The position numbers and the translations under genes are program-made. 64,000 nt of DNA from Anaerotignum propionicum DSM 1682 (GTDB lineage Bacteria; Bacillota; Clostridia; Lachnospirales; Anaerotignaceae). This document shows positions 32,027 to 40,392 of this stretch, piece after piece. Below the pieces are notes generated by a model. The model was not told the origin of the DNA. It saw only the letters and a program-made list of their open reading frames with translations, and ran no database searches. Positions within the stretch are counted from its first letter, which is position 1. Each line of letters opens with the position of its first letter. The stretch is taken from positions 2,294,001 to 2,358,000 of the forward strand of contig NZ_CP014223.1 of the NCBI RefSeq assembly GCF_001561955.1. The letters are read 5' to 3'.

Positions 32027-32578
32027 ATGTATAGTGTGCCCCCTGATATTGGAAAGGAAATGAGAAGAATCCGAACAGAAATGAGAATCAGCCTAGACAC
32101 TGCTGCCCGCCTTACAGGGGTTTCCAAGGCAATGCTTGGGCAAATAGAACGAGGTGAATCCATTCCTACCATTTCTACCCTTTGGAAAATATCCACCGGT
32201 TATAAGGTCACCTTTTCCAATTTTATTTCGCAAAATTCAGTTGAAAATAATATTTTAAGCATTAACGATATCTATCCCATAAAAGAAGAGAATGGAGATA
32301 TGCTTCTCTATAACATTTTTCCCTTTGACCCAATTTCAGGCTTGGATTTTTTGCAGATACACATGAAGCCCCATTGCCGGCACGAATCTTTCCCCCACAC
32401 CAATGTGTTAAATGAATATATCGTCATAATCAAAGGACAATTGCAAATGACAATCAACAATAAAGTTTATATTTTGCAAAAAGATGATGCTCTGTCCTTT
32501 CAAGGGGATTCAAACCATGTTTATGCAAACCCTACAAATGAGGATGTTATATTTCATAATGTAATTCGATATAAATAA
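32027..32578 (+). CDS. XRE-family regulator with cupin sensor domain
   Basis: 183 residues: helix-turn-helix (about 8-62; MRRIRTEMRISLDTAARLTG and SKAMLGQIERGESIPTISTL) plus a C-terminal cupin (about 105-180; IHMKPHCRHESFPHTN and LNEYIVIIKGQLQMTI, with His residues that may bind a metal or ligand). Such proteins sense small molecules and control adjacent catabolic genes. It is 255 bases upstream of the glycyl-radical enzyme in the same direction, so it is the likely regulator. Confidence 0.9.
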   Translation: MYSVPPDIGKEMRRIRTEMRISLDTAARLTGVSKAMLGQIERGESIPTISTLWKISTGYKVTFSNFISQNSVENNILSINDIYPIKEENGDMLLYNIFPFDPISGLDFLQIHMKPHCRHESFPHTNVLNEYIVIIKGQLQMTINNKVYILQKDDALSFQGDSNHVYANPTNEDVIFHNVIRYK

Positions 32579-32624
32579 AATGAAAAAGACGAAAATCCTA
32601 GGATTTTTGTCTTTTTTTCATTTT
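32577..32624 (+). terminator. Terminator after the XRE-cupin gene
   Basis: A long imperfect hairpin (AAAATGAAAAAGACGAAAAT with GGATTTTTGTCTTTTTTTCA) overlaps the stop codon. It separates the regulator from the glycyl-radical operon. Confidence 0.75.
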
Positions 32625-32677: not shown

Positions 32678-32706
32678 TTGACAAAAACGAAAAAAAATGC
32701 AATATT
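32678..32706 (+). promoter_or_regulatory. Possible promoter of the glycyl-radical operon
   Basis: A perfect TTGACA (32678-32683), a 17-base spacer, and TGC-AATATT (extended -10-like, four of six matches at 32701-32706). This leaves a leader of about 120 bases. The -10 is weak, which would suit an activated promoter. Confidence 0.4.
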
Positions 32707-32833
32707 AAGACTATAAGTTGTGCGTTATAACATACACTTTTTTCATTATCACATCTTTTCCCAATTAAGAAATCGACTGTTATCTCGCACAATCATCTGA
32801 CTGTTAATCTTAAATCCATTAAGGAGGGTCAAT

Positions 32834-35206
32834 ATGAATACAACTGCAAGAATTGAACGATTAAGACAAAACTATGTAAATTCGAAGCCATCTGTATGTA
32901 TTGAACGAGCAAGAATTTTTACAGAATCCCATAAGCGCACAGAGGGTATGCCTACCCCAATTCGCAGAGCCCAAGCCTTTTATGATTTTTGCAATGAATT
33001 TGATATTCAAATCTTCGAGGATGAGTTAATTGTGGGAACAGCTGGTAAATTTAGAAGAAGCGGCATTTTGACACCTGAATTCTCTTGGAAATGGGTAGAC
33101 AAAGAAATGGACATGTTTGATAAACGTCCTCAAGATCCTTATGAAATGACCGATGAGCAAAGAGCCTATGTACGTGAGAATATCTTCCCTTACTGGAGAG
33201 GAAAATCCCTTGAAGAGCATTTTCTCTCTATCCTTCCTGAAGAAACTGCCAGAATCGCAGTGGATACAGGTATTGTTGATAACGACTCAAAATGGCGTCA
33301 AGCTGTTGGAGAAGTAACCCCAGATTATCAAGATGTTCTTTTCCCCTTGGGCTTTCAAGGTATTTTGAAGCAAGCGGAGGAACAATTAGTTGAATTGGAT
33401 TTTGCAAATCCTGATGACTTTGATAAGATTGCATTTTATAAATCAACCATTTTAACCAGCAAGGGTATTATGCGTTTTGCAGAAAGATTTTCTGATCTGG
33501 CAGAGCAAATGGCTAACCAAGAACAGAATGAGGAAAGAAAAGCTGAACTTCTAAAAATCTCTAAGGTTTGCCGAAACGTTCCAGCAAATCCCCCAACCTC
33601 CTTCCATGAGGCAGTGCAATTTGTATGGTTTGTGCAGCTTGGGGCAATTATTTCCGAAAATCCATTGGCTCTTAACCCAGGCAGATTTGACCAATACATG
33701 TTCCCTTATTATGACGCTGATGTAAAAGCAGGCATTATTTCCAAGGAGGATGGGGAAGAATTGGTTCAGGCCCTTTGGCTAAAATTCTCTGAATGGGTTT
33801 GGACAATTTCTGCGAATACAACAGGTTATTTTGCAGGTTATAACCAATTCCAAAACCTTACTGTTGGTGGACGCAAAAGAGACGGGTCTGACGCTACCAA
33901 TGCGCTTTCCTATATCTGCCTGGAAGCCACGGATAAAGTGAAAACCCATCAGCCCGGACTAAGCGTTAGAATCCATTCCGACTGCCCTCAGAAATTACTG
34001 GATGCTGTAACTGAACTTGTCAGCAAAGGCACAGGCTTCCCTGCAATCCATAACGATCAGGTGGGAGCACAAATGCTTTTACAAGCAGGATATGAACCTG
34101 AGGATGCAAGAGATTGGAGCAATTGTGGTTGTGTTGTGCCCCATTTCCGTAAAACAGGACAGTGGACTGCTGCTGTAAATATTAACTTTGCCGCTGCCAT
34201 GGAATATGCATTAAACGAAGGAAAAAGCAGGCTTACAGGGGAAAAAATGGGTCTGGATGCAAAACCTATTGCAAATTACGCATCCTTTGCAGAGGTGAAA
34301 GATGCCACCTTGGAACAGATGAAAAACTTAATTTATCATAGTGTTGTTGCAACAGTTGTGGCACAAAAGTTACATACACAGCTTGTTCCCCGCCCTTTCC
34401 TTTCTACCTGTGTTGAGGATTGTATTAAAAATGGCAAAGACCTATCCTGCGGTGGAGCTCACTATAACGTTGGTCCTGTTCTGACAGGTATCGGTCTTGC
34501 GGTAGTGGCGAACTCCCTTGCAGTAATTAAAAAACTAGTTTTTGAGGATAAAGTAACCACCATGGAAGAGCTCAATAACGCTATGAATGCAAACTGGGTT
34601 GGCTATGAAGAATTAAGAGCAAAAGCATTAAGTGTACCAAAATACGGTAACGACGATGATTATGTGGACGATATTGCAAGAGAAATTGCCAACTATTATT
34701 ATCTGGAAACCAGAGCCCATAAAGATATCTTTGGCTCCAATTTTAACTCAGCTTTCATGGGAATTTCTAATTATATCCCAACAGGAAGAATTGTTGGCGC
34801 CACTCCTTGCGGCAGAGAAGCCACAAAGCCAATCACAGAGGGTGTATCCCCTTATGCAGGAAGTGACGTTACCAGTCCCCTTGCGGCAATGCGTTCCAGT
34901 GCAAAAATGAATCATGATGTTCACACCGGAGGTACACTTCTAAACCTACGTTTAAGTGAAGAAATGGTAAAAACACCTAAGGGCAGAAGAGACCTTGGCA
35001 ATATTATTCGGGCATATTTCTCCCTTGGTGCCTTCCACGTACAATTTAACACTCTTTCTACAGAGGTGCTTCGTAAAGCACAGAAGAATCCACAAGATTA
35101 TAAAGACCTCTTGGTGCGTGTGGCAGGCTATAGTACCCAATTTGTAAATCTTTCACCAGAAATGCAGGAAGCGATTATCGCAAGAACGGCACACGAAACA
35201 ATATAA
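32834..35206 (+). CDS. Glycyl-radical enzyme of unknown substrate (PFL-like superfamily)
   Basis: 790 residues, the size of the glycerol, propanediol and hydroxyproline dehydratase group. The radical loop RVAGYS sits near the C-terminus (Gly765). The active-site loop reads NCGCVVPHFRKTG (Cys431 and Cys433); most dehydratases and arylacetate decarboxylases have GCVE, so the usual Glu is Val435. NPGRFDQYMFPYY, PKYGNDDDYVDDIA and GGTLLNLR are also clear. Strong AGGAGG site. The activase follows in an operon. The substrate cannot be read; it is not a typical PFL, which has a Cys-Cys pair. Confidence 0.9.
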   Translation: MNTTARIERLRQNYVNSKPSVCIERARIFTESHKRTEGMPTPIRRAQAFYDFCNEFDIQIFEDELIVGTAGKFRRSGILTPEFSWKWVDKEMDMFDKRPQDPYEMTDEQRAYVRENIFPYWRGKSLEEHFLSILPEETARIAVDTGIVDNDSKWRQAVGEVTPDYQDVLFPLGFQGILKQAEEQLVELDFANPDDFDKIAFYKSTILTSKGIMRFAERFSDLAEQMANQEQNEERKAELLKISKVCRNVPANPPTSFHEAVQFVWFVQLGAIISENPLALNPGRFDQYMFPYYDADVKAGIISKEDGEELVQALWLKFSEWVWTISANTTGYFAGYNQFQNLTVGGRKRDGSDATNALSYICLEATDKVKTHQPGLSVRIHSDCPQKLLDAVTELVSKGTGFPAIHNDQVGAQMLLQAGYEPEDARDWSNCGCVVPHFRKTGQWTAAVNINFAAAMEYALNEGKSRLTGEKMGLDAKPIANYASFAEVKDATLEQMKNLIYHSVVATVVAQKLHTQLVPRPFLSTCVEDCIKNGKDLSCGGAHYNVGPVLTGIGLAVVANSLAVIKKLVFEDKVTTMEELNNAMNANWVGYEELRAKALSVPKYGNDDDYVDDIAREIANYYYLETRAHKDIFGSNFNSAFMGISNYIPTGRIVGATPCGREATKPITEGVSPYAGSDVTSPLAAMRSSAKMNHDVHTGGTLLNLRLSEEMVKTPKGRRDLGNIIRAYFSLGAFHVQFNTLSTEVLRKAQKNPQDYKDLLVRVAGYSTQFVNLSPEMQEAIIARTAHETI

Positions 35207-35266: not shown

Positions 35267-36175
35267 ATGGGAGAATGTTCAAATACCGGCATTGTCATTC
35301 AGATGCAGGACTATTCTATACATGATGGCGATGGCGTCAGAACCACCATATTTCTTGCTGGCTGCAATCTGCGCTGCCAGTGGTGTGCCAACCCCGAATC
35401 TTGGACAACAAAAAGCAAATTGGTCTTTTATCGGCATAAATGCGTTGGCTGTATGAAATGCGCCAACGTCTGTCCCATGGATCTCGTTCCCTGCAATATG
35501 GAGCGACCCAATGATATCTGCACTGCTTGCGGAAAATGTGTTGCAGTTTGCGCACAAAAAGCCCTGGATATTGCTTGCACTGAGAAAAGTGTAGATACAC
35601 TGGTGAAAAAAATAGAGAGAGATGCACTATTTTTCCGCTATTCAGGAGGAGGGGTTACTTTTTCAGGAGGTGAACCCTTTTTACAGCATAAATTTATGCG
35701 GGTCTTATTAAATCGATTTGAGGAATTGGGAATTGAAAGCTGGGTGGAAACCTGCGGATATTTTGATTTTGAAGCAGTACAAGACCTATTACCCAAATTC
35801 AGCCACATTTTCTTCGACCTGAAGCATATGGATAGCGAAAAACACAAAGAGTTCACAGGTTGTGGCAATGAAATCATTCTGGAAAATGCGATAAAAGTAT
35901 ATCAAACAGGGGTTCCAATGACAATTAGAATTCCAACCATAGTTGAGGTAAACATAAGCGATGATAATATAGAAAAAACAGCACAATTTATAAAGGAAAA
36001 TCTGCCGAAAGCCAATGTTGAGCTTCTCCCCTATCACGGGTTGGGCAAGGCCAAATATATTTCCTTGGGAATAGAAGAAAAGTTTATTGACTTTACTACA
36101 CCAACAGCAACCCAAATTCAACATGCCTATGAAATTTTTAAGAAAAATGGCATAGACGTAATTGAATACAGATAA
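35267..36175 (+). CDS. Glycyl-radical-enzyme activating enzyme (radical SAM)
   Basis: 302 residues. The radical-SAM cluster motif is CNLRCQWC (CxxxCxxC) after GVRTTIFLAG. Two ferredoxin-type clusters follow (CVGCMKCANVCPM; CTACGKCVAVCAQ), as in the activases of non-PFL glycyl-radical enzymes, and GGGVTFSGGEP binds SAM. It installs the radical on Gly765 of the upstream enzyme. 60 bases downstream of that gene, AGGAGG site. Confidence 0.95.
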   Translation: MGECSNTGIVIQMQDYSIHDGDGVRTTIFLAGCNLRCQWCANPESWTTKSKLVFYRHKCVGCMKCANVCPMDLVPCNMERPNDICTACGKCVAVCAQKALDIACTEKSVDTLVKKIERDALFFRYSGGGVTFSGGEPFLQHKFMRVLLNRFEELGIESWVETCGYFDFEAVQDLLPKFSHIFFDLKHMDSEKHKEFTGCGNEIILENAIKVYQTGVPMTIRIPTIVEVNISDDNIEKTAQFIKENLPKANVELLPYHGLGKAKYISLGIEEKFIDFTTPTATQIQHAYEIFKKNGIDVIEYR

Positions 36176-39191: not shown

Positions 39192-40392
39192 TTATTGATA
39201 TACTTCTTTTACTCGTGCATAGTATATCCGCAGAAATTTATTGAGACCTGCAATTTTTGCCAATTTCTTAGCTTTGCCTTCAGATTCTTTTTTCAAAATA
39301 TACCAATAAACAGAGCTGTCTGCTGGTGCACTGTGTGTCTTTAAGACCCTCATCACTTCATATCCGATTTTTCTTAGCGTCGAGGAACCTCGCTTGCTTA
39401 TTTTACGATTCGTTCCTATAAATTGCCCTGATTGGTATGGTGGAGCATCTATTCCTGCAAATGCAATCAAAGCCCTGCTGCTATGAAATCTACGAATATC
39501 ACCAATTTCTGCTATTAATTTTGGTGCTAATACATCTCCAACTCCCCCCATTGACCTTACTACAGAATATTCTGGCAACTGCTTGGCGAGTTCTTTCATC
39601 CGTGTTAAAATAGTCTTCAAGGTAGTATTGACTTGCCTCAATACACCAACTGCCTGCTGAATCATAATCTGAGTTGATTCCATTTCAGCAGGCAATGTAG
39701 GGATACCATCTTGTGCCAGGGAATAAATCTTGACGGCTTTATTATGGTTCTGATGGTATCCTTTTTCTTTTGCCCACGCTAAATAATTATTAATGAAATC
39801 TATCTCTGACAGTTTTGTTATATTATCGAAATGCCAATACATCTCTACAAAATCTGATAATTTGTCTTTACCAGTTGAATCTTGCCATCCCTTCAACAAT
39901 TTTTTTATACCAGGCATTGTATAGTCCAACAAATGTGTCAAGGACTGTACACTCTCTATTCTCATTCTCATATAATGTGAATACTGTCTGCCCAATATTT
40001 TAAGTTCTTGATAAATACCTTCGGACATTTCGTATTTTTTGAGGCGAAACCAGTAATCAATTCCGTAATTTGCTATTGCAATGGAGTCCTGCTTATCTGT
40101 TTTTATTGCCCTAAGTCCTTGACTTCTGTACTGTTTCATTTCAAATGGGTTTATTACAGCTACAAAAATCCCTCGTTCTTGCAGAAAATCAAACACCGGA
40201 AGATGATAGATTCCTGTTGCCTCAATTACAACTTTAACGTCTTCATTAAATCTTAAAAAGCATAGATGACAATTCAGATAATCCTTGCTCTGTATGTTCT
40301 ATTTCAAACGGTGAACAAATCAACTCTCCATATGGTTTTAAAATACAAACCGTACTCTTTCCTTTTGAAATATCAATTCCAACACTAATCAT
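39192..40392 (-). pseudogene. IS110-family transposase, frameshifted
   Basis: The full gene starts at ATG 40392 (MISVGIDISKGKSTVCIL, an RuvC-like DEDD N-terminus with GIDISK) and ends at 39192. The C-terminal part holds the IS110 transposase_20 domain (VVRSMGGVGDVLAPKLIAEI; FAGIDAPPYQSGQFIGTNRK, with the Ser nucleophile region near KISKRGSSTLRK). A one-base excess in a T5 run on the minus strand (40255-40260) breaks the frame: ATG CTT TTT AAG instead of ATG CTT TTA AGA. This copy is probably dead unless the run is a sequencing error. Confidence 0.85.

Follow-up and report, generated by a model that had tools for sequence, protein, structure and literature searches.

An apparently uncharacterized family of glycyl-radical enzymes with a Cys-Gly-Cys-Val-Val loop, found in Anaerotignum propionicum and spanning three phyla

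In this work, we analyzed a stretch of 64,000 nucleotides from the genome of Anaerotignum propionicum DSM 1682 (contig NZ_CP014223.1, positions 2,294,001 to 2,358,000), hereafter the window, and specifically a gene within it (32834..35206, + strand) that encodes a glycyl-radical enzyme (GRE) of 790 amino acids (P0001). Judged from its sequence and its modelled structure, this protein belongs to a monophyletic, uncharacterized GRE family. The family falls in one group with choline trimethylamine-lyase (CutC) and the N-methyl-hydroxyproline dehydratases, and the protein is a member of neither. This family, designated here CGCVV after the loop that carries its thiyl cysteine, is apparently an uncharacterized offshoot of a known superfamily and is set apart by its active site, the glutamate found two residues after the thiyl cysteine of GRE eliminases being replaced by valine.

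The open reading frame (ORF) at 32834-35206 (+) contains a single stop, the terminal one, and the AlphaFold2 model of its product is of high confidence (pLDDT 93.1, pTM 0.92). The Pfam scan identified the domains PF02901 (753.6 bits, cut-off 24.3) and PF01228 (107.8 bits, cut-off 22.2), which, together with a thiyl cysteine loop containing C433 and an RVxGY motif containing G765, make the protein a member of the GRE superfamily. An initial annotation of this DNA had described a dehydratase-like length, a normal RVAGYS loop and a Cys-Gly-Cys-Val-Val loop without the usual glutamate, and on these points it was right: the length is confirmed by the ORF and extends to the fold in the structure comparison, the RVAGYS loop carries the radical glycine G765 (codon at 35126..35128, +; sequence and alignment), and both the DNA and the translation give the cysteine loop with the residue numbers 431-435 originally assigned. 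The complete loop, N430-C431-G432-C433-V434-V435-P436-H437, is encoded at 34121..34144 (+); in the alignment, C433 falls in the thiyl cysteine column, V435 in the column of the CXE glutamate and C431 in that of CutC Met487. The CXE motif of GRE eliminases, as defined in PMC7077986 and PMC8473560, is absent from the CGCVV clade, all 57 aligned rows of which read C433-V434-V435.

The loop is strictly conserved. In a first alignment, CGCVVPH was present in 53/53 rows with at least 58% identity to the window protein, a count that includes the window itself and in which some genomes are represented twice. In the alignment from which residues were counted, C431, C433, V435 and H437, as well as E160, were each found in 57/57 clade rows, window included; row L038 was left out of it, and its correct frame carries the CGCVVPH loop. 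Identity to the window protein was 56.3% for the most distant clade member (L145), compared with 40.3% for the closest row outside the clade. At the V435 column, the 28 outgroup rows have Glu (25), Gln (2) or Ser (1), so that the glutamate is absent from a few other lineages too, though never replaced there by valine; among the rows aligned, the Glu to Val change is confined to the CGCVV clade. In two further GREs, Gln occupies the position of the CXE glutamate, L198:540-2942 (-) reading GCIQ and L097:5773-7965 (+) reading GCSQ, the former also having Glu at the E160 position and no NCBIfam match at E≤1e-200. In two metagenome-assembled genome (MAG) copies, L101 and L044 (genomes G841 and G843), the GRE frame is interrupted by a stop, one TAG and one TAA, which may reflect decay or assembly error.

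The position of the family was examined in trees, profile searches and structure comparisons. In a careful tree of 30 rows with the cysteine loop masked, the 14 CGCVV rows formed a clade with 100/100 support and joined CutC (three rows) and the CGCVE family (two rows) in one group with 100/99 support, CGCVV and CGCVE being separate clades with 100/100 each, the latter by its two rows. A quick tree of 61 rows likewise returned a single CGCVV clade (33 rows, support 100); within it the proteobacterial rows nest inside Bacillota rows, which suggests that the proteobacterial copies were acquired by transfer. IslA, HpsG, the decarboxylases, GD, PD, HplG and the X-succinate synthases had no rows in these trees and were compared through their NCBIfam scores and structure ranks. 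The NCBIfam listing for the protein contains 12 models, of which 11 score below their cut-off; the one model passed, narrowly, is TIGR01774 (678.7 against 678.2), a broad subfamily that names no single reaction. None of the equivalogs among these 12 models reaches its cut-off, the best being CutC (TIGR04394, 756.2 against 1050 bits); HypD (NF043068, 601.8 against 1100 bits), TIGR01255 (pyr_form_ly_1, 136.4 against 994.2 bits), HpsG, HpfG and the indoleacetate and 4-hydroxyphenylacetate decarboxylases all remain below, and no IslA model is among the matches listed. True CutC (L193), HypD (L195, L196) and HpfG (L199) exist as separate genes in carrier genomes. A characterized family sharing the CGCVV loop, with which the protein might cluster, was sought and none was found by NCBIfam, structure matches or the trees, the last within the sampling given above; the loops of 1r8w, 9rco, 5i2a, HplG (7vua) and PflD (8yjo) are GCVE or GCIE. 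Nor did we find a paper on the CGCVV family in the open literature, which does not prove its absence from print.

The nearest solved structure to the model is CutC (TM 0.98; Z 56.1 and a root-mean-square deviation of 1.3 Å over 789 residues with 5FAU), which is also nearest by sequence (38-40% identity) and by NCBIfam rank. Thirteen active-site residues of CutC are listed between PMC12838924 and PMC12451663, and our alignment gives the published letter for all 13 sites in three CutC rows. Compared with the window protein, (i) five are kept (F389=F333, F395=F339, C489=C433, T502=T445 and I700=I644), (ii) one is conservatively replaced (D216=E160), and (iii) seven are changed (Y208=S152, H209=K153, T334=L278, M487=C431, E491=V435, Y506=N449 and L698=M642). 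All but one of these 13 sites show no variation in the 57 clade rows, and N449 is found in 55/57. Several of these positions have assigned roles in CutC: Phe395 has a cation-pi role (PMC8473560), Asp216 lies near the trimethylammonium head (PMC12838924) and is equivalent to HypD His160 and IslA Gln193 (PMC8473560), Met487 is a pocket residue (PMC12451663, PMC12838924) and Glu491 is reported to be the catalytic base (PMC12451663). An acid is kept at the Asp216 site, whereas Glu491, Tyr208 and Tyr506 of CutC correspond to V435, S152 and N449. The locus also differs from that of CutC, no microcompartment shell gene being seen by eye among the ORFs read around the gene. HypD has the same fold (Z 53.2) and its Phe340 has an equivalent in the window protein, but its Asp278, Asp339, Glu436 and Tyr450 (PMC7077986, PMC8473560) are replaced by L278, Q338, V and N.

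The initial annotation had taken the second cysteine near the thiyl site as a sign of a different reaction, and this part of it was not upheld. C431 is also present in the CGCVE rows L194 and L030, which keep the CXE glutamate. The PDB entries matched by L194, a protein of a Terrisporobacter genome, include 8ID1 (1220 bits) and 8IOF (910 bits), which by their PDB titles are the N-methyl-cis-4-hydroxy-L-proline dehydratase of Intestinibacter bartlettii and the N-methyl-cis-4-hydroxy-D-proline dehydratase of Clostridium sp. FS41, respectively. Since these Glu-retaining dehydratases have C431, this residue by itself is no sign of new chemistry. They resemble the CGCVV clade in tree group, C431, E160, W428 and T445, and differ from it in the retained glutamate (V435 in the clade), in having Arg at position 156, where most CGCVV rows have Gln or Asn, and in overall sequence (34-36% identity to the window protein in the structure alignment). 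Their gene neighborhoods also differ, both CGCVE loci having a P5C reductase-like gene and one of them a BCCT-type transporter gene (by eye). In an Anaerotignum relative (G025), L204 3722-18411 contains a CGCVE GRE amid BCCT transporter, P5C reductase, aldehyde dehydrogenase, racemase, DHDPS-type and FAD oxidoreductase genes (by eye) and is likely an N-methyl-hydroxyproline catabolic cluster. The further statement that the protein has no Glu base is correct for the CXE glutamate and incomplete otherwise, as an invariant acid, E160, occupies the CutC Asp216 position. A reaction different from all known ones is plausible.

What this reaction might be can be addressed from the pocket. Loss of the glutamate is expected to matter, because the IslA variant E470Q is reported to lose all activity (PMC8473560) and Glu491 to act as the base in CutC. 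We infer that the substrate lacks a hydroxyl in need of deprotonation or that Glu160 (codon at 33311..33313, +; present in 57/57 rows, with site equivalence from PMC8473560) takes over. Where CutC holds the hydroxyl of choline, V435 and L278 stand in for Glu491 and Thr334, and the group located there would therefore be apolar or in no need of a base. A cationic amine substrate is probable because both phenylalanines of the CutC pocket (F333, F339) and the acid at the Asp216 position are kept. Our preferred reading, to which we give rather less than even confidence, is that the protein acts as a lyase on an amine that is cationic and perhaps N-methylated, Glu160 serving as acid/base. In such a mechanism, a radical-SAM activase would place the radical on G765, which would then oxidize C433 to the thiyl; the thiyl would abstract a hydrogen next to a heteroatom of the substrate, the putative cationic and perhaps N-methylated amine, and E160 would enable breakage of the C-N or another C-heteroatom bond. 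With a similarly guarded confidence, we would place the reaction outside the known GRE set: an amine without a neighboring hydroxyl would be cleaved or rearranged by a radical route that involves the strand acid Glu160 and possibly C431.

Several considerations weigh against a cationic-amine lyase. C-N cleavage without a neighboring hydroxyl radical is energetically hard. Because Tyr208 and Tyr506 of the CutC pocket are missing, the substrate need not be a quaternary ammonium, and HypD also has a Phe (Phe340), so the phenylalanines alone do not fix the amine class. In addition, the order inside the three-family group is weak (CutC with CGCVE, 81/69 in the masked tree), and the gene neighborhood, with its weak recurrent neighbors, points to no pathway. 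We still favor the cationic-amine lyase over a relocated-base eliminase, an isomerase and an addition or C-C reaction, in descending order. The first of these, a dehydratase, or an eliminase of another kind, acting on a hydroxylated substrate that need not be an amine, would keep to known chemistry by moving the base from the cysteine loop to Glu160, and we consider it unlikely, although it is the closest competitor. It would fit the eliminase fold of the protein and the invariance of Glu160, whose position is in contact with substrate in CutC (Asp216), HypD (His160) and IslA (Gln193); E160 is, moreover, found in the CGCVE dehydratases and in the GCIQ row L198. Such a reaction would nonetheless have to proceed with an apolar surface where CutC holds the hydroxyl (V435, L278), and the complete inactivity of IslA E470Q (PMC8473560) indicates that the CXE glutamate is hard to dispense with.

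An isomerase, epimerase or 1,2-migration enzyme acting on an amine or amino acid, which would abstract a hydrogen and return it and have no need of a general base, appears improbable. C431, two residues before the thiyl cysteine and aligned with CutC Met487 in the wall of the pocket, could serve as a second hydrogen donor, quantum mechanics/molecular mechanics calculations on CutC favor amine migration (PMC12451663), no pathway gene recurs beside the cassette and racemase-like genes lie near the GRE in some loci (L158, L115). These neighbors are few, however, alanine racemase being found near in one locus and far in one, and the CGCVE dehydratases, whose reaction is the elimination of water, have C431 as well. 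To our knowledge, moreover, there is no GRE epimerase. More improbable still is a C-C bond enzyme, adding a radical to an acceptor or cleaving a C-C bond in the manner of X-succinate synthases or PFL. These enzymes share the GRE fold with the window protein, X-succinate synthases have no Glu after the thiyl cysteine and neither does the PFL-like row of the same genome (CCVS), the only other such gene on its single 3.12-Mb contig. Against this, the CGCVV clade groups with CutC and the CGCVE dehydratases, the structure ranks of benzylsuccinate synthase (Z 43.1) and PFL (Z 37.8) are below that of CutC, the pyr_form_ly_1 score is far under its cut-off, the activase reaches 188.1 against 496.45 bits with the BssD model TIGR04003, and no gene for a small partner subunit recurs beside the GRE in the loci compared. 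PFL further has vicinal cysteines, whereas the window protein has one residue between them. The initial annotation had held that X-succinate synthases and PFL lack the glutamate but differ otherwise: the differences stand, as does the missing glutamate for the PFL-like row. Finally, the valine would be a loss-of-function change if the enzyme were decaying or inactive, as stops in the GRE of a few relatives (L101, L044) or in the activase (L043) might suggest. We regard this as very improbable, as the thiyl cysteine, the radical glycine and the pocket residues are invariant in 57/57 rows down to 56% identity; this invariance over three phyla, together with an activase homologue in 56/60 loci, argues for selection for function.

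The gene directly relevant to activation lies at 35267..36175 (+) and encodes a radical-SAM GRE activase of 302 amino acids with ferredoxin-type 4Fe-4S motifs (TIGR02494, 312.8 bits against a cut-off of 174.35; Pfam matches). We compared 60 loci, which were not dereplicated and some of which are cut by contig ends: the activase homologue was recognized in the 56 mentioned above and an XRE-cupin homologue in 48, the next commonest neighbor cluster being ABC transporter ATPases (9 of 60). Neighbors within 3 kb (253 genes) were then counted against those at 4-8.5 kb (324 genes). M20 peptidases were found near in four loci (L117, L119, L125, L046) and far in one, a DUF5058 gene in three and one, a threonine-aldolase-like gene in three and none, and a methionine gamma-lyase-like gene in two and three; Gate-domain pairs are also among the weak recurrent neighbors. 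These counts fix no substrate, and deducing one from the neighborhoods was rejected; they hint at amino-acid derivatives and no further. A DUF5058 gene (PF16481 in L117) was seen near the GRE in L117, L119, L136 and L159, from several families, with M20 or D-aminoacylase-like genes, and is often accompanied by a second membrane protein without a Pfam match. Some activase frames are atypical: that at L043:10382-11290 (+), beside the GRE of Intestinibacter bartlettii DSM 16795, has an in-frame stop at residue 133, so that in that record the GRE may not be activated by this activase, and short ORFs of 246-253 amino acids, compared with 302 in the window, were found in L044, L049, L118, L121 and L125, the last without a ferredoxin-type stretch (by eye). 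About 3 kb downstream of the cassette, the window contains an IS110-type transposase-like ORF (39192-40196, -; by eye).

Upstream of the GRE, the gene at 32027..32578 (+) encodes an XRE-cupin transcriptional regulator of 183 amino acids (PF01381 and PF07883 above cut-off). It is followed by a terminator-like hairpin (32582..32617, +), which is no more than suggestive because the consensus scan found five such hairpins compared with 4.1 in shuffles, and by a promoter-like TTGACA-17-AATATT (32678..32706, +), for which the consensus scan returned 28 sites in the region compared with 15.6 in shuffles. A near-palindrome read in the DNA at 32719..32736, TGTGCGTTATAACATACA, is a probable operator; its core, TGCGTTATAACATA, at 32721-32734, starts 14 bp after the -10-like hexamer. 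The palindrome TGCGTTATAACGCA (counted as present when 11 or more of its 14 letters match in the 250 bp preceding the GRE or, where the regulator is directly upstream, the XRE-GRE pair; 45 of the 60 loci) was found in 23/35 loci with the XRE-cupin gene and in 0/10 without it, whereas resamples by the dinucleotide steps of each stretch reach 11/14 or more in 1.1%. The longer operator pattern has a single zero-mismatch match in its own genome, the site before the GRE, and all zero-mismatch matches in 13 genomes (in G000, G829 and G830) precede a GRE. We would expect the XRE-cupin protein, bound to the promoter-side operator, to keep the operon repressed until an inducer binds its cupin domain.

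Some observations speak against the operator assignment. The count is not an independent test because the consensus was drawn from those same loci, and the score is below 11 in 12/35 regulator-bearing loci, including both Peptostreptococcaceae loci, L043 and L045. At two mismatches or fewer, the pattern has 129 matches in the 13 genomes compared with 118 for the reversed control (palindromic sites counted twice), that is, 10 compared with 11 in its own genome, 18 compared with 8 in the Anaerotignum genome G020 and 19 compared with 9 in Vibrio, the last excess counting against the operator reading. No target gene is shared among the six other operator-like sites read. By these sequence matches, the XRE-cupin regulator looks to act locally, and it may have further targets in Vibrio and G020, where matches exceed the controls. 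A GntR-type gene (cluster 20) takes the place of the XRE-cupin gene in L145, L115, L143 and L050, and the regulator is therefore not essential to the CGCVV family.

Within the taxonomic family of the source organism, 27/58 genomes match the GRE at E≤1e-100, or 26 after removal of G021, which has only 33-34% matches, one of them HpfG-type (L029). In two other families of the same phylum, the GRE is present in 8/17 and 4/10 genomes. Wider even draws at E≤1e-220 recovered it from 4/392 genomes of the class and 5/398 of the phylum, the source genome being counted in each draw; with the Vibrio genome as the centre, the same threshold gave 1/197 of the family and 1/398 of the phylum, each being the Vibrio genome itself. 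The CGCVV clade spans three phyla, and its carriers include Anaerotignum neopropionicum, Intestinibacter bartlettii, Terrisporobacter mayombei, Acidaminobacter hydrogenoformans, Cohaesibacter, Oleispirillum naphthae, Vibrio sp. HA2012, a Treponema MAG, Peptoclostridium acidaminophilum and Acetoanaerobium noterae.

GREs underlie the formation of trimethylamine, p-cresol and sulfide in anaerobes. The present analysis adds to them a coherent, apparently uncharacterized CGCVV family in named organisms, without recurrent pathway genes alongside. The predicted operator and its regulator would offer a handle on the substrate through whatever induces the operon. If our reading is true, a GRE family distributed over three phyla gave up the general base of the cysteine loop. 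The CGCVV family constitutes a natural test of the role of the catalytic glutamate and of whether an acid elsewhere can take its place.

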